A stretch of 64,000 nt of DNA, from the NCBI RefSeq assembly GCF_000218685.1, contig NW_006763290.1, forward strand, positions 758,723 to 822,722, given 5' to 3'. Of this stretch, positions 13,175-58,199 are shown piece after piece. The translations under genes and the position numbers were made by a program. Below the pieces are notes generated by a model. That model was not told the origin of the DNA. It saw only the letters and a list, made by a program, of their open reading frames with translations, and did no database searches. The stretch's first letter is position 1. Each line of letters opens with the position of its first letter. Source of the DNA: Serpula lacrymans var. lacrymans S7.9 (taxonomy: Eukaryota; Basidiomycota; Agaricomycetes; Boletales; Serpulaceae).

Positions 13175-14229
13175 AATCAAGACTGGAGACGGTAACAAGC
13201 AAACCTTGAAAGCTATTACTAGTTCAGTCCTAGCAGCAAAAAATCAGTTTTCAGCGTTGGTATGAACCATTGTTGAATCTCAAAACTAATATTAACCAGT
13301 CTAAAAGGCACAAGCATGCAGCAATTTAGAAGACATAAAAAATTTTGGAGCTGTTATCTATACAGGGACAGAACATGCAGGCCAACAGATGTTAGGGGTT
13401 TTTGGAGGCTCCCATATAGTCAAGGCCTTCATTGACGAGCGTGAAATTGACATCAGGCAAATGGTTGATTATCTTACTACGGTCTTTAAGTGCATATTTG
13501 ATCTGTTCCGCTTTTTTTTTACTGATCCTCTTGCTGCAGATTTAAAAATCTAGGCAATCAAAAATTGCCCGAGATACCTGTCTTCCCTTCCAAAGGTTTT
13601 CAACTTTGGCCAGGAGAGTTGGCGTGTGATTGTGATAGACAAGCATTCACAGCAATAATGCACAAAGGTCTTTGTAAGTTTTGCTATTTTGTGTACCAAC
13701 CAATTAAATGAAATCTTTTAGAGTTGGCCAACATTGACGTGCAGAAGGTACACTGGAAACATTGGTTGAGGATCGCCCGGAAACACGAGATAGTCATTCT
13801 AAACTGGCCAGATGGTGTCCTTCCGGTCCCTAGGCCAGGTTTCAACTTCAGGGATTTGGGGTCCCATGGACTTGCAAGGTTGACCACAGGATATATATGA
13901 CATTGTATGGGTTCAAAATCTCAAGTAGTATACCCAGCTATTGTGAAATGGGATGCAGGCATGTATCTCTTAGACATTAAGAGAATGTTTGCTAATCATT
14001 TTATTTTTCCATCATATCTTTAGATGCAAGAAGAACCCAAAAAGGAGGTGGGCATACCACTGGTGAAGGATATACGAGGTAACTCCTTGCATGTTCTAGG
14101 AGACTGTGTGGAATAGCAGAAGAGGAACTATATCAAACACCAGGATTTGGTTGAAGAAGCCACATTCCGTAACCATACTCGAAGCACTACTTCTCTTGGG
14201 GATCACCAGCCAGATATTCCACAATGTGC
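13175..14229 (+). other. decayed coding remnants, no gene supportable
   Basis: Short plus-strand pieces such as MLGVFGGSHIVKAFIDERE (near 13390) and VHWKHWLRIARKHEIVILNW (near 13745) look like exons of a repeat-associated protein. They are not in one frame, are separated by stops, and match nothing I can name. They follow family K on the same strand and may be its 3' region. Confidence 0.35.
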
Positions 14230-14325
14230 ACCCCCCTTTGGCCCCCGCCCCCATGCTCCTCCTTCTGGCCCCCACCCTCATGCTCCTCTTGGTCCCCATC
14301 CCTGTGCTCCTCCTCCCAGTCTCCG
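14230..14325 (+). repeat. C-rich minisatellite
   Basis: A pyrimidine-rich stretch of three to four imperfect units of about 27 bases (CCCCCACCCTCATGCTCCT type), translating as repeated GPxPHAP. It abuts the 5' truncation of the copia element. GC content is far above the surroundings. Confidence 0.65.
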
Positions 14326-15524
14326 CCACCATGTTCTACAACACCCTGACACTCGCTCAGCACTTCAAACTTCGTGATCTTGGCCCTACTTCCTACCTAC
14401 TTGGCATTTCCATCACCGGAGACCTCAGCAATCGCACCATCTCCCTCTCCCAACATCAGTACACTCTGGACATTCTGGAGCGCTTTGGCATGAAGGACTG
14501 CAAGCCTGTGTCCACTCCAATGGACCCTGGTTTATGATAAAATTGGATAAATGACCAGACCAGGGATTGAACCTGGAACCTTCTGGATACATGCCAGCTG
14601 CTCTACTAATTGAGCTATATGGCCAAGGTTATACAATGTAGGATCTTAAACATGACATGCAACCACGGACGTATTACACAGAATAGCTGCTGCATACTGG
14701 GCTGGCTTACAAATCAGAGGTATTATCCTATGGGGTATTGGTATGTCAGAGTATATTCTAACAGTTTACGCCTCACCAAGGATATGTCTCCCAAGACACC
14801 AGAAGAAGTGCAACTGATGAAGGACATTCCCTATCTTGCTGCTGTTGGTGCTCTGATGTATTTGTCCTAACATTACCTATACTGTTGGAGTTCTTGCCAG
14901 ATTCAATTCCAATCCTGGGCCCACCCACTGGGGTGCTGTCAAGCACTTATTCCGCTACTTGCAAGGCACCCTCAATCACTCACTTGTCCTTGGCCCTGAT
15001 CCTAATTCCACTGAACTCTTCACCACTTTCTCTGATGCTGATCATGGTGGTGACAAGGACTCTGGACGCTCTACTGGTGCTTACCTTGTCAAGATTGGAT
15101 CTGGTGCTGTCTCTTGGAGTTCCAAACTTCAAAGCATTGTTGCTCTTTCCACCACTGAGGCAGAATATATTGCTGCTGTTGAAGCTGGCAAGGGGATCTG
15201 CTGGATGCGAAATCTGCTGAAGGAAATGGGCTATCCTATTACCTCTCCTTCCACCCTTCACATTGACAACCAATCTGCCATCTCTGTGTCCAAGAATCCT
15301 GAACACCATGGTTGAATGAAGCACCTTGATTTACACTGGCATTGGTTGAAAGATATTGTTGGCTCTGGCCAAATTGCTCCCACCTTTGTGCCCACTGCTG
15401 AAATGCCTGCTGATTTGTTGATCAAGGCTCTGGCTAAGCCTAAAGTTGAAATGTTCAGACAGATGATAGGACTTGTTAGATCAGGGGGGAGCTAATGCTT
15501 GGGAGGTGCAGCATCAGGGGGGAG
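14326..15524 (+). pseudogene. Ty1/copia pol remnant: end of RT and RNase H
   Basis: Starts inside the reverse transcriptase with TLAQHFKLRDLGPTSYLLG and YTLDILERFGMKDCKPVSTP, then MDPGL, where the 229-bp insertion 14535-14763 sits. It continues RLTKDMSPKTPEEVQLMKDI, a frame shift near 14870, then RNase H: FSDADHGGDKDSGRSTGAYL, STTEAEYIAAVEA and HIDNQSAISVSKNPEHHG. A TGA (15313-15315) follows, where related elements have Arg (CGA). The frame goes on to MKHLDLHWHWLKDI. A polypurine tract (AGGGGGGAG, 15516-15524) precedes the LTR. gag, protease, integrase and the 5' LTR are absent. Confidence 0.88.
14535..14763 (-). mobile_element. 229-bp insertion with tRNA-Thr-like sequence, copy 1
   Basis: On the plus strand it runs TGATAAAATT...TATTCTAACA, with the exact 5-bp duplication GTTTA (14530-14534 and 14764-14768). 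Removing it restores the copia frame GLRLTKD. On the minus strand 14623-14553 reads as a near-complete tRNA: D-arm GCTC/GAGC, anticodon stem CTGG/CCAG with loop CATGTAT (anticodon TGT would be Thr), T-arm CCAGG/CCTGG with loop TTCAATC. The ends are TG...CA as in an LTR. A 228-bp sister copy is at 55866-56093. A solo mini-LTR carrying a tRNA-like gene, or an unusual SINE, both fit. Confidence 0.82.
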
Positions 15525-29399: not shown

Positions 29400-29441
29400 C
29401 GTCCTGACCAAGCTATATCTTTTGAGCGCCAGTTTTGCAAC

Positions 29442-31517
29442 TTGCTATTGCAAGATGACTCTCCCTTTCAAAGTGACCCCAACTTTGTGTATGTTTGTTG
29501 GAACATAATGCAGCGACGTGAAGTCATGAAACATGTCACCTTTTGTGTTCAAGCTTCCGAACGCATATTAATAGGTAGGCAAATTAGTGAACAAGCACCC
29601 GCACTTACCAATCTCATTCGTATCTGGAAGTCCAACCCTTACGCAAAACCTTCCAACCATCAACAGAAAGCTGCTGTCAAGCTTCTTAATCGTTTAAAAT
29701 TCTTAGCCAAGGATGTGAAGGGTAGTAGTGGCTACAAGCAGTGTTGGTGCAATGAGATCTGTGTGTTGATGAAGCTGTTAGGTACTCTGGCTTTATTTTT
29801 GACTATTGATTCTTCAGATATCAATCACTTTTTGGTCAGCCTCTTTGGTGACGTGTTGCCCGAGGAGCGGAAAACTTTGAGTATACTGCAAAGGTCTGTA
29901 TTTGTTGCAAAGAACCCTGGTTCAGCCACTCTCTGTTTTGATCATATCATTACCAGTTTTATAAACACCATTTTGAAGTATGGTAGCAAGCAACCTGGCT
30001 TGTTTGGTGTTTGTGACACATACTATGGGATGGTTGAGGCTCAGGGGAGAGGTACTTTGTATTATCACCTGCTGATATGGATATGCGGCAATTCTAACCC
30101 TCAAAGCTTGTGTGATCGCATATTGGCAGACAAGGACTACAAGACCCAGATTTCCACTTGGTTGGAGTCTATCATTCAATGTGAGCTGCCTGGTATGATG
30201 GAAGTTGTAATCGACAGCCCTGACCATCCACTTCAGAGGCCTCCACGTGCACCCGACCAACTAGATCCTAGACTTGCAGATTGGCCGATATTGAGTGAAG
30301 ACAATGTTCATTTTGCACAACACTTTCAAGACTTTGTTACTGATTTAGCGCTCACATGTAATTGGCACAAGCATACGGACATGTTCTGGAAACACTTGCG
30401 ACCGGGAGAGCCTTGCAATGACTCACATCGTAGGATGCAAATAAACGGGTCTACTCATTCTCTCACTGAACTTGATAGTGAGACCCAAGGAATATTATTG
30501 TGGAGATTGCACCCAAAGATTAACAACTTTAATGACATTGTCATCTTCCTACTTAAGTGTAATATGGACATCAAATATGTTGGTTCGGGTGAAGCGGCAA
30601 AAGCCTTACTTTACTATATAAGTGATTATATCACTAAGAGCACGCTCCCCGTGCACGTTGGCCTGGATGCATTGCGTTACGCGATTAAGCAGAACAAGAA
30701 GAAATTTCCCCAAAGTGACGACACTCCTGAGTTGGTGAGGAGTCAAAGTTTGTTCACTAAAAGTGTAAATGCTATAATGGCTCGTCAAGAGATGTCACAT
30801 CAACAAGTCATGTCCTACCTCATTGGAGGAGGGGACTGTTATTGTGTTATTAGATGGTCTGAATTTGACCAATACATGTCTTCCCACTTCGCTGGAGACC
30901 TTCAGTCTTCATCCTCTGTAGAAGATGATAGTGATGTCCCTTTTCATGACAACGCTGGGCACCTACTTCCCTGTGCTGATGACCAAACTGCACTTACAGA
31001 GGAGATTAGTGTGAGTGTCAAAAACAACTATATCTCGATCAATAGCGACTTACAAGATTATTGCTATTGTAGTGAAGAAGAGGTTTTCCAAAGTCTTCCT
31101 TTATGGGACTACATCGAATGCTGCCAAAAGATCCTTAGCTCCCATAAGTCTGCAAGACTAATGTATCATACAGACAAGGTTCGTCACGAGGATGGATGTT
31201 TGCGACTACGACCTGGTAGATCTGCAGCACCCAGAGGGCAATTCCTGCATGAACACCCACGGATGAGAGAACATCATCTCATGCCTGTCCTTCTGGGGCG
31301 CCCTCTTCCAAGACCTGATCGTGATGGTGAGGAGTTTGATAATTGGAGTTGGGCGATGCTCATTTTGTTCAAGCCCTGGAGACATCCCTCCAACTTGAGA
31401 TCTACAAACGAGAGTTGGACAGAAGCATTTCAACATTATGATTTCTCACCTCAACATAAAATGCTCATTGAAAATGAATGCAAGGACGTAAGAGACCTAC
31501 ACTCCCACGTCCGTTGA
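29442..31517 (+). pseudogene. Helitron B Rep (Helitron_like_N) with mutated HUH site
   Basis: This is the longest open frame in the window (691 codons). It includes FQSDPNFVYVCWNIMQRREV, SRYK-like WKSNPYAKPSNHQQKAAVKL, SSDINHFLVSLFGDVLP and VEAQGRGTLYYHLLIWICG. The last is the rolling-circle Rep motif 2, normally His-x-His. Here codons 30060-30068 read Tyr-Tyr-His, so the first His is lost (CAT to TAT, a C-to-T change). Further on, KALLYYISDYITKSTLPVHV is the Tyr-containing motif 3 region. The frame then runs through acidic and His/Pro-rich parts to HSHVR. The open frame survives but the metal site does not, so it is scored as inactive. Confidence 0.82.
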
Positions 31518-35674: not shown

Positions 35675-38123
35675 CTATTCACCATCATCTTCTAACAGGC
35701 CACATGCAGCACATGCAGCTTTGTAAGTTGGATGTAAAACCCCATCAAATGTGCACAAATCTTCCCAACTCTCTGCTCCAGGGACCACAGTGAGCAGTGT
35801 ACGGAGGTAGAAGCGCTTCCCTTGCCTTGGATGGACAAACATCAATCTCCCTATAGCAAATTGTTGTTTTCTTGGAGTCCATTTTTTGGCACCTTTGTTC
35901 CAGACAAAGTATTGAGGATAATCCTGATAAGGTATGTGACGGCCTTCAGGGTGATCTTTATTGGCAGTGAACCATTCTGTGAGTTGATTCTTTGATGTAC
36001 GGTCGTTATTGATTATATTCTCTGCATCATCATGGGCATTGAAGAATACAGTTTGCTGATCCTTTAAGTGAACGGGAAGACACAATACCATTGGTTTTTC
36101 TTCATGCATAGGGAACTCCAAGAGATGCCAGCATGCTTCCACAGGACCAATATAGCAACCGTCAATATAGTCCTGAATCTCATCCCTCGGCTGCCTTGCA
36201 TCTCCATGCACAATTCCTACATCTGCACCTTGTCCTCCCACCACAACTGAAGCTCGATCATGGCTCTTGTAAATATATTTATGAATATATTTTACGGCTT
36301 TAACGGATGCACAGATTTTAACATTGATGTGACAGTCATATTTGGCAGAGAGATATGCATTATAAGGGACGACATCACGGTTATCAAAAACATGACCACT
36401 TGGAGCTGTATAAGTCCTCCCATTGTCAGGCCTTGCATATTCTGGATAACCATCATCACCAAATCTGGTTTCAGCACAAAACTCTTTGTGATAGCGCTTT
36501 GAGCATGCTCTATTCTTCATGCACCGGGCTCCAGGGGGCTCAGGTCCACATGGACCGTGCATCATACACTTCGTGACCATTGAATATAATTTTCGTTGTG
36601 TAACAGGATCAGGAATTTGAGCAGAGACAACAAAGTCAACCTGGGTGGCATCACAGATTTTATATTGATCTTCCAAGAATATGAGAAGATGCATGTGTGG
36701 CAAACCCCGCTTTTGGTATTCCACAGTGTAAACAGATCCCATCTTTGACTTCCTTCAACAGTGCCTTCTTTTTCTGATAGAAGACATGTGCAATAATGTC
36801 AGGACGGTCTGCAGCAGTCTGTTTTCTTGTAGGCATATTGGGGTCATCATCTACTTCACCGGCATTGTTGTATTCCAGCAAAGCCTCTTGAATTTCAGGC
36901 CAGTTGGTGTTTGCTGTCATTGTAAGAAAAATATCGGGTTTACGGCAGTGGCAACATATAGCCATGGAGTCCTGGAAGAGCTGGTACATGTGCCGTGTAC
37001 TACCAGAATGAGAAGATGGTAGGATAATGTTCTGGCCCTGTTGACCCAAATCTATTTCCCCATCATTTCGATCCATAGCATCTTTAATGCCTTGGTAAAG
37101 ATCTGCCCTTATGTCTTTTTGATGATGACGGACCCACTTCAATTCACTTTCTTCTGTGGAAGCCCATGCATCAACGCAATACTCCTGAAGTAGTTTTCCA
37201 CCATAGAAGAGATTAGATTGATTGGTTCTTCGGGGATGGAGACGGTATGCATAATAACACGGCTGGGAGACATATTCACTGCATATATTTCCATCAGCAT
37301 TTTGAATGGATTGTATTGTCCTATGCCACCCTTGTTCTCCAAAGGGAAATAGGAGGACATAATGCAGAGGTGAATAAAGGGGGTGCAAATGGCTGATATG
37401 CTTGAGACCACCACCATGATCAAATTGCTTCAGCTGCAAAACAATATCACAGTCCTCATCAACATTGTGTTCTCCATCTCCAAGGATAACAGCAGCAACG
37501 TCATCTGCAGTAGGAAGATTATAACGACGTTGGTCCAGAGTTTGATCAAGAGCTATATGGGCTGTTATGTTGGCACGTTCTGCTTCAGGCTTTTCCATGA
37601 TGATCTGATAAGCTTGCTTGTACAACAGGATGAATGGATTGAATGGATTGAATTGCTCCAGGGTATCCTGGATCTCCAGCATGGTTGCTGGTGTAGTGCC
37701 ATGCCCCCGGTTATTCTCATTACGTAAAAAAAGGGCGGTCTGTGGGTCGTGAATGTAAAGCTGGCCAAAAGAGGGAGTTTCACCTTTAGGTGGATGGAAT
37801 GCGCTGATGCTATGATGAAGGCCTCCATGGATACGGAAACTATAAGGTCCTGCAGCACTTGTGACAGCATGGTCTATCTTGACACCCAAAGACGTAAATG
37901 CAAAGGCATTGTTGTATGAGCAAACTTTGTCACGGAATTCACATGCAGTAATGTTAACCCCACGGAACAGACAGTGTAGCGCAGCAGGCGCTTCCTGGAA
38001 AGGATCCAGCCTAACCCGACCTTGAAGGCAGCACACACCAAATTTTGGATGGATCCTGGAGGAACTTGTGAGTCTCTCGGTATCCCAGTGTAATGCTCCA
38101 CAATTACAGCACTCTACTTCCAT
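35675..38123 (-). pseudogene. Helitron A Rep protein with intact HMH motif (copy 1)
   Basis: Two overlapping frames. 38123-36660 starts MEVECCNCGALHWDTERLTS (zinc motif) and runs through YSPLHYVLLFPFGEQGW, FLTMTANTNWPEIQEALLEY and RPDIIAHVFYQKKKALLKEV. 36742-35675 continues VYTVEYQKRGLPHMHLLIFL (HUH: His-Met-His) and VKAVKYIHKYIYKSHDRA (catalytic Tyr region), then LTEWFTANKDHPEGRHIPYQ and EDLCTFDGVLHPTYKAACAA. The frames join at about 36745 by a small deletion, which also removed the usual residues before VYT. Catalytic residues are present, so this is the best preserved Rep here, but the frameshift makes it non-functional as it stands. Confidence 0.87.
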
Positions 38124-38291
38124 GTTGCATAAAGTATGACGGTATAGAGGCTCTACATATGGTTGTCAGGCCTCCTGGTGTATCACCTGTGCTTGGCGGC
38201 GGTTGGCAATATTTTGTTCATTTGCAAGTCGTTGAGGCCTGGCATCCTTGGTGCATTTCTGGCAGCTACCGGTTCATTTTAAGTCCCCGCC

Positions 38292-42795: not shown

Positions 42796-42834
42796 AATGA
42801 AGACCCAGGGAAAAGAGTTTGGAGCTTAGGTCAC

Positions 42835-45535
42835 TTGGGTGCCTTCACTCCACGAAACAATGAAGTAAACCACAACAAAGTGGCCCCTGTTCTGGGGTGT
42901 TGCACAAGCAATAATGGAAAGAAAGGGGTGGCTCCCCAGTTTGTAAATAGATTTCTAAATTTATCTGAAATATGTACTTGTATGAAGCATTGTGACTGTG
43001 ATATTTATGATACTACTGCTGCACCAGCGTCTCCCTTGGAGTGTGGCCCCGGCGAGACAAACAATAGGGTGCTTGATTCTGGTAAAAATAAAATAGAAAA
43101 ACATGTAACTTTCAATACCTCTTCCTCTTCATTGAAGCCACCATTTCCCGAAATCCCAAGGTGTGTGTTGATGCGCACGTATATATTCCAAAAAGAGATT
43201 TGTTTAGATGTTGGTGTGGAAAACCTTGCCTGGGGCATAGTACACCCAACCAGCACACTGCTTGATTCAGGCGCTAACAGAATCTTCATAGATCAGGTCT
43301 GGGCGGAACAAATTGGACTTCCCCTTGTAAAATTAGATGTATCTATTCCCGTCTATAATGTTGACGGTACACTTAACGTAGGTGGCTGTATCACACACAA
43401 ATGTTCCTTTGTTGTTGAATACCAAGGACACAGGGAACGAGTCACTGCCAAAGCTACCCAACTAGGGAAGATTAATTTAATCTTGGGCTGGCCCTGGCTA
43501 TTCAAACACAATCCTGAGATCGACTGGCAGACAGGGGTTGTCACATTGTCACATTGCCCTCAGGAGTGTGTGGACTTGGGTAAACCGAATCGCGTCCGTC
43601 ACAATGAGTGCCTTGAAAAAATTAATGCTGCTCACGTTTATGAACTCAGATCTCTAGAAAAGATTGACAATGACAATGACGAGGTAAAACGCGAGGAAGA
43701 GATTAAGAGGCTGGTACCTCCAGAGTACCATGACTTCTGGAAAGTCTTTTCAAAACACAAATCAGAGCACTTCCCAGAGGCTAAGCCTTGGGACCATGCA
43801 ATAGATTTGAAGGACACCTTCAAACCGAGAAAAGGGCACATGATTCCCCTCTCTGCTCCAGAAAAAAATGAGGTCTCAAGTTTCATAGATGAACAGCTTA
43901 GGAAGGGTTACATCAGACCTTCCAAAAGCCCCACGACGCCCCTGGTGTTCTTCATCCCTAAAAAGGATGGTAAGAAGCGCATGATTATGGATTATCATTA
44001 CGTGAATGAGCACACAGTTAAAAATGTGTATCTGCTGCCTTTGATCAGTCAGCTAGTAGACAAATTGGCTGGCGCCAAAATCTTGATAAAGATGGATCTC
44101 AGATGGGGGTACAATAATGTACGGATCAAAGAAGAAGATGCTTGGAAGGCCGCGTTCACGTGCCGCCAAGGATCCTTTGAACCCCTTGTTATGTTCTTTG
44201 GGTTGACCAACTCACCGGTAACCTTCCAGAGCATGATGAATGATATCTTTGCGGATATGGAAGACTGCGTTGTCATTTACATTGACAATTTGTTGATATT
44301 TACGAAGTCGGACGATGAGGCTGAGCATGACAGGATCGTGCAAGAAGTCCTTTGATGCTTACAGGAACGGGACCTATTCGTCAAACCCGAAAAATGAAAT
44401 TTTAAGGTGAAGGAAGTAGACTTCCTCGGTATGATCATAGGCCAGAACAGAATCAGGATGGATCCTGAGAAATTTAAAGCTATATTGGACTGGCCAGAAC
44501 CTACTTGTGTCAAAGGAGTTAGGGCCTTCCTTGGCTTAGGAAATATCTACTGAAGGTTTATCAAAAACTTCACAAAAATCACGAGACTGTTGAACGATCT
44601 CACTAAAAAAGACATTGTTTGGCACTGGGGCGCCAAAGAACAAGAAGCTTTTGATAAGCTTAAACAGGCATTCACGACAGTGCCCATATTAGCATTTCCA
44701 GAATTAGACAAAGAGTTCCGTTTGGAAACTGACTCTTCTGATTTTGCTACTGGGGCTGTCCTATCAATTAAATGCCCTGACAATCTTTGGAGGCCTTGTG
44801 CCTATTTATCGCATAGTTTGTCGCCTACAGAGCACAACTATCAAATATACAACAAGGAGATGCTGGCCATCATTAGAGCTCTAGAGCACTGGTGGCACTA
44901 CTTAGAAGGTGCTAGGCACCAATTTGAAATTTGGACCAATCATAAAAATCTCGAATATTTTATGACGGCCCGAGACTTGAACCAAAGACAGGCTCGCTAC
45001 GCGGTGTACTTGTCAAGGTTTAATTATAAATTAATTCATAAGCCTGGAAGCTCTATGGGGAAAGCGGACACTTTGTCCAGAAGAGAGGATCATGCCAACG
45101 GCATCGAAGATGACAACAAAGGTGTTACTCTGATAGACCAATCAAGAGTTGCCAATGTTAGAACTGGGCAGGATTCTGATCTTCTGGAAGTCTTCAAGAA
45201 AGACATCTCCTCAGAAGAAAAGGCGCACCTTGACGGCAATGAAAACTATTTATGGGAAGACAGGCTCTTTCATTTTAAAAACAAAATCTATGTGCCTGAG
45301 TCCGCAAGGATCAAGGCAATAGATAGACATCATGAAACTCCAGTGGCTGGGCACCCTGGGTGGCAACAAACAATGGAGTTGATCTCCAGAAACTACATGT
45401 GGCCTGGCATGGTCAAAGACATACAGGAATACATAAAATCCTGTCTGAGATGTGCTATGGCTAAGAATTCTCATCAACTGCCGGCCGGTAAACTTATGCC
45501 AAATCCGATACCAGCTGGTCCCTGGCAGGATATAT
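42835..45535 (+). pseudogene. Ty3/gypsy pol: protease, RT, RNase H, partial integrase
   Basis: One frame with three TGA stops (44353, 44395, 44551). The protease has LLDSGANRIFIDQVWAEQ. The RT has KKDGKKRMIMDYHYVNEHT, KMDLRWGYNNVRIKEEDAWK, FFGLTNSPVTFQSMMND and VVIYIDNLLIFTKSDDE, where the usual YIDD is YIDN (catalytic Asp lost, G-to-A). RNase H has FRLETDSSDFATGAVLS and NYQIYNKEMLAIIRALEHWW. The integrase zinc finger reads HHETPVAGHPGWQQTMELIS and SCLRCAMAK, and the frame ends at AGPWQDI, before the integrase catalytic core. Two of the stops fit CGA to TGA. It is a chromovirus-like or Tf-like fungal gypsy element, dead. Confidence 0.92.
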
Positions 45536-45909
45536 GGCGCACACAGAAACACACTATAAGGAAGATGATGGGGGAGTGGTTACCCCTTAGGCTGCAGAGA
45601 GTTTGTTGGTTAACAACAGGAGGACTCGCTGAGGAGTCTCCTTGATCTATTGGGGTATATATACTACTACAGGGTTATTTGTACATGTGTACTATACAGT
45701 TGATAGAGACAGTGGCTGATGATGTCATGGGGCCTAGCCCGCATGGCCAGCTCCACTGTGTGAGAGAGTTGTGTCCAAAATAAGAAGAAAGGCAATGCGG
45801 CACGAGAAAGGGGAAGTGCCGCGTGGCACCATGTGTGAAAGCTATAGTACAAGGTTTAAAGCGGAGAATAAAAGTAAAGGGAAAGTCTGAAAATTGTGTT
45901 ATCGTAACA
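45536..45909 (-). mobile_element. inverted partial gypsy G1 LTR
   Basis: The reverse complement of the 5' LTR, complete at its TGTTACGATAACAC end (45909) but missing about 35 bp at the other. It is joined directly to the integrase sequence at a TGGC shared by both partners. An element of normal structure would have a direct 3' LTR. After 45909 the Helitron helicase resumes, but about 145 bp of it is missing relative to copy 1. Confidence 0.85.
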
Positions 45910-46581: not shown

Positions 46582-46963
46582 TTGTTCTCGTACGGACTCT
46601 AAGTTAGTAAACCTCTGCGAGAGGTAGCGACCATTTACCCTTTCCGGATTAGCGGTGTAGTTCGGTAAAGCTTACATAACAGGGCATATTTGTTATTTGC
46701 GGATATTTGCCTGTGATACTATGCGAGCAAGGTAACCAAATAGTAGACAAACAAAACATTGTGAGATTCACAACGTAGTGCGTACCTACCACTGGGTCTG
46801 AAGGTTCCGCAATTGCAGCCTCCGTTAGTTGAGTCCTGGTTTGTTATTCGCGTGCAAGTTGGCACCCACATTGTTATACGGAATAACATTTAAATCATCC
46901 AGGTCAAGGCTTCAGTGTCTTCAGCGCGGCTCGTCTATACTGTGTCTCATCTCAAGTCCAGTG
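46582..46963 (+). promoter_or_regulatory. upstream region of the PPZ gene
   Basis: 382 bp between the Helitron 5' end and the phosphatase ATG. No clear TATA box. Pyrimidine-rich and CpG-containing, as is common for basidiomycete promoters. The transcription start is not determinable. Confidence 0.35.
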
Positions 46964-48570
46964 ATGGGCCAACAACAGTCCAAAAAGTCGAGGAAAGGTG
47001 CAAAAGAGAAAGAAAAAGAATCTCTCCTCGTTTCCCCATCCATTGATGTCCACGATGAATTCAACAATAATGATCAGGCAAGCACATCTCGTGCTGTAGG
47101 TTCAATCACTCAGGAAGTTGTCGACGTAGACGAAAACTCCCGTAGTAATGTTTTTCCTGTGACCAGCGCCCACATACCAGGATGGAGCGCCATGTCATCC
47201 GGTGCACAATCGCCTTGTGATAGTGTCACATCTCCGATTAATATTTCACCAGCATCCCCATCTTCAGCATCTAACTTGGCTCTCGTCAGTGCGGGCACCA
47301 GACCCTCACCTTCCCCTCTTGATATTCCCGTTACTTGTACCATACTGTCCAATCCTGCTTCGTCTTCTTTAACACCTGGTTCTGGGTTATTCTCTACGCC
47401 AGGATCCTCTACTAGTTTTCCCTTGGGAGAATCGATATCTGGCAATGGTGGGAAGGATAGGGTCAGACAAATCGATGTCGACGACATTATTCAGCGCTTA
47501 CTAGATGTGGGCTACTCTGGTAAAGTTAACAAGTCGCTGTGTGTCAAGAATACAGAAATAGCAGCTATATGTCAAGCAGCACGGGAAGTTTTCCTGAATC
47601 AGCCAACTCTCATTGAATTGTCACCTCCCGTGAAGATTGTCGGGGATGTGCACGGTCAATATTCTGATCTTATCCGCCTATTCGAGATGTGCGGATTTCC
47701 TCCCACCGCCAATTATCTTTTCCTCGGTGATTATGTCGATAGAGGCAAGCAGAGTTTAGAGACGATCATGCTACTCCTGTGCTACAAGATCAAGTATCCC
47801 GAGAATTTTTTTCTTTTACGAGGGAATCACGAGTGTGCGAATGTTACCAGAGGTCAGTGGGATCCCTGACTCCTTTCTGGATCACAGCTAAATATTACTC
47901 CAGTGTATGGTTTCTATGACGAATGTAAACGGCGTTGTAACATCAAGACTTGGAAGACTTTCATTGATGTATTCAATTGCCTACCAATCGCAGCGATTGT
48001 TGCTTCAAAGATATTCTGTGTGCATGGAGGACTATCGCCGTCACTTCATTCTATGGATGATATCAAACGCATACAAAGGCCTACGGATGTTCCCGATTAC
48101 GGCCTTTTAAACGACCTATTGTGGTCGGATCCTTCTGATACGGCAATGGACTGGGAGGATAACGAACGCGGTGTCAGCTATTGCTTTGGAAAAGCCATTA
48201 TTAATGACTTTTTACTTCGATATGACATGGATTTGATATGTCGTGCCCACATGGTAGTTGAAGACGGGTACGAGTTCTGGAACGATCGTACGTTGGTAAC
48301 AGTTTTTAGTGCTCCGAATTACTGTGGAGGTTAGTCCCCCCCTATCTTCCATTTTATTTTCATTTGTTCAACTTTCGTTGCGAAGAATTTGACAATTATG
48401 GTGCTTGCATGAGGTATTTACATCTGCCGTCGCGCATGCTTTAGCTCACTATTTACGGTTTCATGTCGTTTAGCGTATCTGAAGACCTCTTGTGTGCGTT
48501 TGAGCTTCTCAAGCCGTTGGATGGTCCTGCGTTGCGCAAAGAAATGACAAGAGCAAAACGGAAGAGGTAA
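46964..48570 (+). CDS. PPZ1: PPZ-type serine/threonine protein phosphatase
   Basis: Exons 46964-47852, 47904-48329, 48386-48413 and 48474-48570, all with GT...AG introns and conserved phase. The start [12 protein letters not shown] is a consensus N-myristoylation site (Gly2), as in yeast Ppz1/Ppz2. A Ser/Thr/Pro-rich low-complexity region of about 165 residues follows, then a PP1-like catalytic domain: [19 protein letters not shown] (GDxHG), [15 protein letters not shown] (GDxVDRG), [15 protein letters not shown] (RGNHE), FCVHGGLSP and [11 protein letters not shown]. It ends [20 protein letters not shown]. In yeast these enzymes regulate K+/Na+ homeostasis and cell integrity and are inhibited by Hal3. 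An upstream in-frame ATG at 46829 exists, but the MGQQQS start is preferred. No disabling change is visible. Confidence 0.93.
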
Positions 48571-54249: not shown

Positions 54250-56960
54250 AGAAAAGTCTCAACAACCTAAGTTCAAGCCCAACATATTTTGAACACTGGC
54301 AGACCTTAACCTAGGTAAGTACACTGTTGGGCTGAACTCATGATCAAATGGTTGGTTGGTCTCACTGAGAGTAAAAATGGCAGGGGAGGCAGAACCGGCA
54401 GGACTTTCTTCCTCCCCAAATGGCTGGTCAAGCAAATATGGTGATCCAGAAGGAATGTTTTCACTTGAGCATTTAAAAAAGCCAGTCAGATGGCTCAGAT
54501 AGGTGTACATAGTTACAGAGGTAGAGTATAGATTTGTACATGACAATCTAAGAAAATTCCAAGCAAACACAAGTTGTCTCACCAAAAAAGGCAACCTTCA
54601 CATAATTTGATCTATCTACAAGTCTCGTGTTTGTGTGTACAGCACATTTTATCCTTGTGAATATAACATTGTCAATCTAGCTGTTACTTAGTAAGAAGTT
54701 TAGTATATCCAGCCATATGTGCAACATCAAGCCCAGGCTTCTCAATAACAAAAAATCTCTCAGTATTCTCATTCTGAAATGGTTTATGGGAAACCATGGC
54801 TGAAACAGAGTCAATTGATTTGGTGTCAATCACTTAAAGATTATTGTTGCCCTGGTGTGTACATGACCACAGTGTGTTGAACAAAAGTTGGAGTAGTACA
54901 TTGATACGAGTGCAAGTGGCCTGTTAGTGTCTTTGTTTGACAAGCGTAGGACAAAATAAAACAAGACCTCTTCAAAGAACAACTTATTGATTGAATAAAA
55001 CTGGACACCAGATGATTCAGCTGCAACAACACACAGTAAAAAGAAATGAGCACACTTTTATGTTCCTAGACACTCTGAGTTTCACTTTGGCTTTCATATT
55101 TTTCTTCCAAGCTGACCGTAGCACTTGTTTATTTGGCAGTCAAAACCGTGCTCATTTAGTGATTTAGGTTCCCAGCCATCAACTGCCTCTGAGTAGCCTC
55201 CAGCCTTGAAAACATAGGCTCAGATTGCCTAGGCCTCACAAATGCAGACTGAACATGCATATTTGTCTTTTTCCCGCAGTAGAATATACTTGCCACCAAA
55301 ATCCTTTGAACCTTTTGGAAGACCATGTATTTGAGTGTTGAGGTTTGGTACATTGGTTTTGAGCGTATTAACTTGAGAATGGAGGAGGCCCTGCTGAGAA
55401 ATATTTGCATATGGATTTAAGGGTTGATGAAGTTCTTGCCCCAGATTGCCTAAGGTACATTCCATTGTCCATTGAGATAAACAAATGCCAGGGCCACTTG
55501 CAACAATGTCTGGACCAAGGTTCTGAGCTGTGTGTAAACATGGTCATATAAAATGAAGACAATTTGTGCACTGCTAGTAGCACAAAAGCTCAAATTCAGC
55601 AGAGAATTTAAACATCTTCTTGTGTGCCTGCTGTAGATCCAATGTGAGGATTTGGTGTTGGTTGAATATGTGAACACTAAAAACAAGTTTGCAAAAATTT
55701 TGCCAGTATTTTTATGGGGGAACATTATATAGGACGCCAGGGCACAGTCCATACATGTATAAAAGGAACTCCCAAGCCTTGTACCTGCTGGTAATCTTCT
55801 GTTGGCAATGATTTTCCCATGCATTATCCATGTATCTCCTACTAATACTTCCCAATCCCAGCTGTTGATAAAATTGGATAATGACCAGACCAGGGATTGA
55901 ACCTGGAACCTTCTGGATACATGCCAGCTGCTCTACCAATTGAGCTATATGGCTAAGGTTATACAATGTAGGACCTTAAACATGACATGCAACCACGGAC
56001 GTCTTACACAGAATAGCTGCTGCATACTGGGCTGGCTTACAAATCAGAGGTATTATCCTATGGAGTATTTATTGGTATGTCAGAGTGTATCTACTGTTGG
56101 TTGTTTCACAATCAATGGTCTTCCACCATAAGTTAATGAGAAGGTCAGGCATGTTTAATACAATAAGATGCATTATATCAGATCCAAATGTTTTTGGGAT
56201 GCCAAAATGGTGAAGAGGTGATAGTCCAAGAAAGATGATGGGTTTTGATATGCCTATTTCCAGACGGTGTTTTTTGTACTGAGTAGCATTTGGAGAAGCA
56301 ATGAGGTAGCATAAGTTGGCTTGATACAATATTGGTGAGCTTGAAAGTACCTGGTGAAAGTCAATATCATTATGGTCACATCTTTTGATGTTGTAATTGT
56401 GTGGCTTAAATAGGGCCAGATAATAGTGTGTTCCTCCAGGTTTGTGATGACCTCTTTGTCCACACATCTCTTTGCAGCCATTTTTCCCATGATAACCTAC
56501 AAAACCGTTGAAATACACCAAACCAGGTCCATCTGATATTGCAATGGCTATAAACAGGTTTGAGATATAATAAAACATCTCTCAAAGCATCCCAGACTGG
56601 GAGGCCTTCCTGTTGAACCGCTGTGACATGATAGAATCCAGGAAAAATAAATGAGTCAAGGATTTTAGGTTTGTTTGGCCCAGGGATGAAACTGCCAGGC
56701 AGCACATACTTCTTCTTGTACCAAACATTAGGTGAGTGGTTCTTGACTACCCAAATATAGATTCAACAGTTGGAAGGTTTGTTTTGAAATGGTTAAGCGC
56801 CATCAAGAGAAATCATGAGAATCATATCTTCAGAGTGAATATGACCATCCTTAACAGCATCAAGGTAATCATGGTAAGCTATTGTGACCGCTCCTAAGTG
56901 ATCTGAAGATCTTGGCTGTAGTGCGTGCACAATAACCCATACTGTCAGTACTATCTGGAT
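54250..56960 (-). pseudogene. CACTA Tnp2-family transposase, middle and C-terminal part
   Basis: From 56880 downward the translation reads YHDYLDAVKDGHIHSEDMIL, MISLDGA, stop, PFQNKPSNC, then VLPGSFIPGPNKPKILDSFI (56705), ISDGPGLVYFNGFVGYHGKN (56530), CGQRGHHKPGGTHYYLALFK and IPKTFGSDIMHLIVLNMPDL. After the 55866-56093 insertion come SWDWEVLVGDTWIMHGK, YKAWEFLLYMYGLCPGVLYN, SQWTMECTLGNLGQELHQPL and FFVIEKPGLDVAHMAGYTK (54720). These are the conserved blocks of Agaricomycete Tnp2/Transposase_21 proteins. Stops are TAA and TGA where Gln and Trp are usual. The N-terminus lies at 59583-60107, beyond the gap and a DIRS insertion. Confidence 0.82.
55866..56093 (-). mobile_element. 228-bp insertion with tRNA-Thr-like sequence, copy 2
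   Basis: About 93% identical by eye to 14535-14763. The tRNA-like part (minus strand, about 55953-55883) differs at two or three bases and keeps all three hairpin arms. It is flanked by CTGTTG (55862-55867, overlapping its first two bases, and 56094-56099). Removal restores the Tnp2 reading ETTN-SWDWEV. Confidence 0.8.
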
Positions 56961-57295: not shown

Positions 57296-58199
57296 NNNNN
57301 NNNNNNNNNNNNNNNNNNNNNNNNNNNNNNNNNNNNNNNNNNNNNNNNNNNNNNNNNNNNNNNNNNNNNNNNNNNNNNNNNNNNNNNNNNNNNNNNNNNN
57401 NNNNNNNNNNNNNNNNNNNNNNNNNNNNNNNNNNNNNNNNNNNNNNNNNNNNNNNNNNNNNNNNNNNNNNNNNNNNNNNNNNNNNNNNNNNNNNNNNNNN
57501 NNNNNNNNNNNNNNNNNNNNNNNNNNNNNNNNNNNNNNNNNNNNNNNNNNNNNNNNNNNNNNNNNNNNNNNNNNNNNNNNNNNNNNNNNNNNNNNNNNNN
57601 NNNNNNNNNNNNNNNNNNNNNNNNNNNNNNNNNNNNNNNNNNNNNNNNNNNNNNNNNNNNNNNNNNNNNNNNNNNNNNNNNNNNNNNNNNNNNNNNNNNN
57701 NNNNNNNNNNNNNNNNNNNNNNNNNNNNNNNNNNNNNNNNNNNNNNNNNNNNNNNNNNNNNNNNNNNNNNNNNNNNNNNNNNNNNNNNNNNNNNNNNNNN
57801 NNNNNNNNNNNNNNNNNNNNNNNNNNNNNNNNNNNNNNNNNNNNNNNNNNNNNNNNNNNNNNNNNNNNNNNNNNNNNNNNNNNNNNNNNNNNNNNNNNNN
57901 NNNNNNNNNNNNNNNNNNNNNNNNNNNNNNNNNNNNNNNNNNNNNNNNNNNNNNNNNNNNNNNNNNNNNNNNNNNNNNNNNNNNNNNNNNNNNNNNNNNN
58001 NNNNNNNNNNNNNNNNNNNNNNNNNNNNNNNNNNNNNNNNNNNNNNNNNNNNNNNNNNNNNNNNNNNNNNNNNNNNNNNNNNNNNNNNNNNNNNNNNNNN
58101 NNNNNNNNNNNNNNNNNNNNNNNNNNNNNNNNNNNNNNNNNNNNNNNNNNNNNNNNNNNNNNNNNNNNNNNNNNNNNNNNNNNNNNNNNNNNNNNNNNN
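57296..58199. other. assembly gap (N run)
   Basis: 904 undetermined bases. Gene content is unknown. The DIRS-like fragment abuts its right edge. Confidence 1.

Follow-up and report, generated by a model that had tools for sequence, protein, structure and literature searches.

The window, a 64,000-nucleotide stretch of the genome of the wood-rotting fungus Serpula lacrymans, contains two copies of a short repeat, located exactly where a preliminary description of this DNA had placed them. Copy 1 (14535..14763, minus strand, 229 bp) has the minus-strand sequence TGTTAG...TTTTATCA. It starts with TGTTAGAATATACTC, and near its other end lies a tRNA-like part, after which a short tail contains TTTTATCA. 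Its TG...CA termini at 14535 and 14763 are flanked on both sides by an exact 5-bp target-site duplication, GTTTA (14530..14534 and 14764..14768), as previously described. We identify copy 1 as a solo LTR, which we refer to as LTR_A. Copy 2 (55866..56090 for the aligned part, minus strand) is a second solo LTR_A with an altered 5′ end, probably due to a small deletion at the boundary to the flank.

Copy 1 disrupts the coding sequence of a Copia-type element and is nested inside an element of the copia' type, which has LTRs of the LTR_B' type (see below). The left flank (14133..14534, plus strand) is an open frame throughout, with its right portion matching locus L076, and the right flank (14764..15170, plus strand) continues the same coding sequence with further frame damage. 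The matching site without the insert was found in the related Copia at L076. Excision of either copy had been said to restore the reading frame of its host. For copy 1, joining the flanks minus one GTTTA indeed allowed the Copia frame to run through until other damage downstream. For copy 2, one of the three joining phases was open (249 codons), which is weak support given a chance of 1/3. The label Tnp2 for the host of copy 2 could not be confirmed, as neither of the two flank pieces examined yielded a Pfam domain. Other features of the window, at 29403-31514, 35678-38162, 42799-45642 and 46832-47866, comprise, in this order, Helitron-like frames, a region with RT, RNase H and integrase that is presumably Gypsy-type, and a PP-Z-type phosphatase exon, the last of these at 46832-47866. 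Additionally, 57296-58199 is a single masked run of 904 bases.

Read on the minus strand, LTR_A is 228 or 229 bp long and carries the tRNA-like sequence in sense near its 3′ end (14551..14625 in copy 1 and 55881..55955 in copy 2, both minus strand). The Rfam tRNA model (RF00005, cut-off 29 bits) matched the minus strand of copy 1 with 50.2 bits and that of copy 2 with 46.3 bits, and ARAGORN detected both, calling tRNA-Thr (TGT) for copy 1. Among the sources scanned, the same call was made for 10 of 11 LTR_A copies. While the tRNA-like match was thus confirmed in both copies, “nearly canonical” is too strong a description: reading the sequence and the Rfam alignment by eye, we found A33 in the anticodon loop and mismatches at pairs 27-43 and 6-67. 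U33 is near-universal in tRNAs. Because of A33 and the mismatched pairs, the tRNA part is not credible as a tRNA-Thr gene. The predicted single-strand fold of this part did not contain a cloverleaf (z = -1.58, with 14 of 200 shuffles as good), and no genuine host tRNA-Thr(TGT) was present among the tRNA loci fetched. Seven predicted host tRNAs were compared as a possible source, and Ile-AAT scored best (global alignment score 47 of 73), a score equalled by a second tRNA-like repeat described below; L052, considered as an eighth host candidate, proved to be a copy of that second repeat.

We take TAGCTCAATTAG (TAGCTCAATTGG in copy 2) at 14606..14617 and GGTTCAATCCC at 14563..14573 (both minus strand) to resemble an A box and a B box, respectively, judging from the consensus sequences. 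A TTTT stretch that immediately follows the tRNA-like part on its 3′ side (14539..14542, minus strand) is a candidate weak pol III terminator. We regard the tRNA part of LTR_A as a tRNA relic with A and B boxes that may act as a pol III promoter. There is a weak suggestion that this part is more conserved than the remainder of the LTR (0.018 versus 0.030 and 0.032 in the two other LTR parts across 45 copies, with p = 0.083 by permutation; of 14 recurrently variable sites, 1 lies in this part, p = 0.037). The LTRs of Ty1/copia elements such as Drosophila copia and Ty5 are not known to contain a tRNA gene-like sequence.

The genome comprises 42.6 Mb in 29 contigs. When up to 3 mismatches were allowed, a 42-nt pattern of the tRNA core matched it at 130 places and the reversed control at none, which is more than chance. 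A 29-nt pattern of the LTR start matched 138 places (control 0). The fetched loci and the window together provided 45 distinct copies of at least 215 bp, 42 of them full length, a set that is not random and consists mostly of the best-scoring copies (best 40 of 150 candidates) and of loci fetched for their neighbors. As assigned by script, 20 full-length copies have a perfect 5-bp duplication, 15 lie beside a PBS or purine tract, and 7 show neither, although one of these seven (L039) is in fact preceded by a purine tract in which one base is changed. Considering the unpaired full-length copies, a perfect 5-bp duplication was present in 20 of 26 and absent in 6, with an expected chance of about 1 in 1024 per copy. 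The unpaired copies have fixed ends and no variable tails.

The preliminary description had favored a miniature LTR retrotransposon and proposed searching for copies paired in direct orientation around a short internal part with PBS and PPT. Such a pair was found at L034 (C4:1271455-1272020; L034:3456-4021), where two LTR_A of 228 bp enclose 110 bp, giving a TRIM of 566 bp in total flanked by the duplication CAATA. Its two LTRs differ at 7 of 228 sites. A second pair, L020, consists of LTR_A, the same 110-bp internal part and a truncated 3′ LTR_A, so that L034 is the one complete A-A TRIM that was read. The internal part starts with GGTTATGAGCCCTG (PBS) and ends with CAGGAGGGAG (PPT, a purine tract), each at the inner edge of an LTR. 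It is non-coding and the TRIM lacks a gag-pol capacity of its own, coding sequence being found only beside or inside the chimeras described below. The PBS is the exact 14-nt complement of the anticodon arm in both tRNA-Met(CAT) genes found (L057 and L058). These were called by ARAGORN at two of the five GGGCTCATAACCC places searched, and we take them, from the sequence type, to be initiator tRNAs. If the internal part were limited by pol III termination, T-runs should be depleted in it; no such depletion was found (2 runs versus a shuffled mean of 1.9).

The Copia family concerned is abundant and has an LTR of its own, LTR_B (320 bp, TGTTAGTTTTGG...TTAATA), with 507 candidates at first look versus 150 for LTR_A. 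Two same-strand pairs of LTR_B about 5.75 kb apart were read at both ends (C3:57394/63142 and C1:1136097/1141842), and contain the Copia leader and the end of the frame between the LTRs. A sister type, copia', is marked by LTR_B' (334 bp), and its internal part is about 75-87% identical to that of the LTR_B Copia, depending on the region. The best 10 of 7989 scored protein relatives of this Copia are 55-60% identical, and those with names include proteins from Sparassis, Taiwanofungus and Trametes. Comparison of LTR_A with LTR_B gave no match longer than 7 nt. The 14-nt PBS is common to the TRIM and to the Copia family with LTR_B and LTR_B'.

LTR_A also borders bodies of this abundant Copia family, whose own LTRs are unrelated to it; this arrangement is new here. 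Among the best 40 of 233 candidates, LTR_A is joined to the Copia leader at at least nine places. Conversely, the TRIM internal part occurs at 11 places (all 16 candidates scored) and is preceded by a whole or partial LTR_B or LTR_B' at eight of them and by LTR_A at two; the remaining one, L040, is fragmentary and retains a short LTR_A tail.

Six elements with unlike LTRs were read at both ends, and four of these carry a perfect 5-bp duplication (chance 1.4e-11). Two have the structure A-copia'-B' (L033, CATCC; L077/L076, GTATC), one is A-copia-B with deletions in the copia part (L043, GATAC), and one is B'-TRIM-A (L037, TAACT). The two without duplication are L038 (B'-TRIM-A) and L036/L075 (B-TRIM-A-copia-B). 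The ends of L077/L076 and of L036/L075 were read, and each is presumably a single element. L044, L035, L079, L039 and L042 have at least one end missing or damaged and were left out of this count.

Two further elements, C25 and L041, are composites with an internal third LTR, similar outer LTRs and a perfect flanking 5-bp duplication in both cases. C25 (C25:2898-9050 = L031:2898-9050) spans 6153 bp, is flanked by TAAGG, and its outer LTRs differ at 1 of 228 sites. Its Copia frame is uninterrupted (1427 codons, 1410 aa from the first Met) and contains gag, gag-pre-integrase, integrase and RVT_2 domains. Past the frame follow a purine tract, LTR_B, the PBS again, the TRIM internal part and LTR_A. 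The LTR_B of C25 gave no tRNA call. L041 has outer LTRs differing at 3 of 228 sites and a longest frame of 1230 codons, and is therefore not intact; its duplication, AAAAA, is weak evidence since it lies inside an A-run. The lower LTR divergence of C25 compared with the complete TRIM L034 (1 versus 7 of 228 sites) suggests that C25 is the younger insertion. C25 sits on a short contig of 18,675 bp, and the genome was represented by one assembly.

Altogether, 16 junctions join an LTR to the PBS of the other element, all within 5 nt of the PBS. The natural end of the LTR is retained in 9 of the 16, and would fit an intermolecular transfer of plus-strand strong-stop DNA. The other seven end in the last 3 to 5 nt of the downstream parent, as would fit a minus-strand switch just beyond the PBS. 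These chimeric ends are found where LTR_A meets copia' (L033, L077, L079 and L035), where LTR_B meets the TRIM (C25 and L044) and where LTR_B' meets the TRIM (L035); the second junction of L044 is presumably to a TRIM, as the sequence breaks off just past the PBS. A comparable offset of 3-5 nt occurs in all three LTR types. We also considered the chimeric ends as a mark of an RNA 3′ end at the TTTT run and rejected this, since the offset is similar in LTR_B and LTR_B', where there is no T-run, and hence cannot be taken as a pol III footprint.

One block of the leader is single in C25 and duplicated in each of L041 (the other composite), L036 and L081 (a B-B element). The leader of L041 is 96.6% identical to that of L081 and 94.8% identical to that of C25. 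The C25 leader otherwise matches best at three places (98-99%), all of them fetched and all of them preceded by LTR_B. In sequence, the composites thus look like separate products rather than one lineage, in which case pol III need not read 6 kb. At L019, L055, L056 and L059, a different sequence (..TTTATTA/G) precedes a PBS-like GGTTATGAGCCCTG with a different continuation; a further family may therefore use a tRNA-Met primer.

Taken together, we consider it very probable that the window repeat is the solo LTR of a non-autonomous Helenus-type TRIM with a tRNA-derived LTR, mobilized by Copia, with template switching at the PBS. In this model, a short RNA would begin at the tRNA-like part of the 5′ LTR_A, likely transcribed by pol III. 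The autonomous Copia family (LTR_B, LTR_B') would package this TRIM RNA together with its own. The TRIM RNA would be primed by tRNA-Met at the anticodon arm, via the 14-nt PBS common with Copia, and the product would be inserted by the Copia integrase. Since TRIM and Copia RNAs have the same PBS, reverse transcriptase could sometimes change template between them at this site. The expected products are hybrids whose two LTRs are unlike (A-Copia-B, B-TRIM-A) and composites with three LTRs (A-Copia-B-TRIM-A), and both would acquire ordinary 5-bp duplications on integration. Elements with two A LTRs could collapse to solo LTRs, whereas unlike-LTR hybrids could not, so most surviving copies of the internal part would be found in hybrids. 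On our best reading, template switching at the PBS would identify Copia as the autonomous partner of the TRIM. The composites may have formed during reverse transcription, with which both the duplications and the PBS junctions agree.

The A-LTR composites such as C25 might themselves move as self-sufficient units, the TRIM having captured its own driver. We regard this as rather unlikely, and the data are equally compatible with each composite having arisen just once, by template switching. If composites did move by themselves, the tRNA-type LTR could serve a 6-kb messenger as well as a short pol III RNA.

Alternatively, the chimeras could have arisen at the DNA level, from adjacent or nested TRIM and Copia insertions followed by recombination or conversion. 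Nested insertions do occur (window copy 1, L025, L044), and L038 and L036/L075 may come from DNA-level recombination, as both lack a duplication. Nevertheless, we consider this origin unlikely for the chimeras, given the matching 5-bp duplications in the other four unlike-LTR elements and in both composites. Moreover, LTR_A and LTR_B are alike over 7 nt at most, and all 16 swaps fall at the 14-nt PBS, which is short for homologous recombination.

It is quite improbable that LTR_A is native to an autonomous C25-like Copia and that the TRIM is its deletion derivative, from the PBS to the second PBS copy. The 14-nt direct repeat at both points means that one deletion in a C25-like element would indeed yield the TRIM. 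However, the interval between the PBS repeats holds an entire LTR_B, which on its own has more first-look candidates than LTR_A, and beyond its first 22 nt the 110-bp internal part does not match the Copia leader. The composites also vary in junction and Copia subtype, which points to products rather than an ancestor.

A tRNA-headed SINE mobilized by a LINE, which a short, numerous and dispersed tRNA-derived repeat with A and B boxes could resemble, and which the preliminary description had considered a poor fit, has a negligible probability: the tRNA lies at the 3′ end instead of forming a 5′ head, an A-rich or variable tail is absent, the TG...CA ends are fixed and mostly flanked by 5-bp duplications, and LTRs are paired around a PBS and PPT. 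Just as implausible is a dispersed family of functional tRNA-Thr genes, since the ARAGORN calls are outweighed by A33, the mismatched pairs, the missing cloverleaf and the position inside a mobile LTR.

The TRIM proposed here has close published relatives. Helenus elements are described as TRIMs defined by a tRNA-derived sequence in the LTR (Kojima 2024, PMC10886601). The fungal members are characterized there by 5-bp duplications and mostly by a PBS that matches the anticodon loop of a tRNA, predominantly of the initiator type, and Copia is named as their likely mobilizer; pol III transcription is expected and unproven in that account too. The Serpula element resembles Helenus (TRIMp3) in its tRNA-derived LTR, length below 1 kb, PBS for the anticodon loop of an initiator tRNA, PPT, 5-bp duplications, solo LTRs and inferred Copia mobilizer. 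It differs in that its host belongs to the Boletales, an order absent from the fungi named in Table 1 (Pucciniales, Agaricales) and in the text (Amylostereum areolatum) of PMC10886601, and in that LTR_A also flanks Copia bodies and hybrids. The partners of TRIMp3 were inferred in PMC10886601 from sequence similarity, and a long common LTR stretch was argued to be unlikely. In agreement with this, the normal Copia partner in Serpula has no long LTR stretch in common with the TRIM, and common LTRs were seen only in the chimeras. Priming at the tRNA anticodon region is likewise known from Drosophila copia and Ty5 (Ty1/copia), as cited in PMC10886601. The preliminary description had drawn an analogy to Cassandra, a plant TRIM which, as described in PMC10886601, also has small-RNA gene sequence in its LTR; the comparison is apt, yet Cassandra carries 5S instead of tRNA sequence and Helenus is the closer published relative.

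Three-LTR complexes with 5-bp duplications were reported from grasses and ascribed to template switching between co-packaged RNAs (Sabot and Schulman 2007, PMC1950507). The Serpula composites share the three LTRs, the similar outer LTRs and the flanking 5-bp duplications. In the grass complexes, the elements joined are related to each other and the switch was proposed to occur at R. The Serpula composites instead link, at the PBS, a TRIM to a Copia whose LTRs are unrelated to its own, and Serpula additionally has hybrids with two unlike LTRs. Titles and abstract beginnings in the open literature, a scope outside subscription journals and preprints, yielded no earlier report of TRIM-Copia hybrids. 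PMC11595502 was rejected as a report on the tRNA-like sequence, the term being found only in its reference list.

The second tRNA-bearing repeat is about 196 bp long (L046:916-1112, L088, L054), reads TATCAC...TTTGTCA in tRNA sense and received a four-base anticodon call. Scoring covered the best 40 of 162 candidates, and 5-bp duplications were present in 9 of the 11 copies inspected (seven by script, L046 and L074 by eye). In L054 and L088, two copies enclose an internal part of 86 bp that is common to both loci and purine-rich at its end. By its structure, this repeat looks like a second Helenus-type TRIM. An LTR_A is inserted in a second-repeat copy at L025 (by eye), and at L044:8842-9038 a second-repeat copy is inserted in an LTR_A.

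In the REPET results of Castanera et al. 2017 (PMC5689174, Table 4), S. lacrymans has 0 TRIM and 0 SINE copies, and the two tRNA-bearing repeats can now be added to this genome. Such repeats may also inflate tRNA gene counts for S. lacrymans. As single insertions, the chimeras of Serpula suggest that RNAs of the TRIM and of Copia were present in one reverse-transcription complex, and that the link between the two is a common PBS, not LTR similarity. Thereby, the TRIM and Copia of Serpula offer a natural system for testing trans-mobilization.
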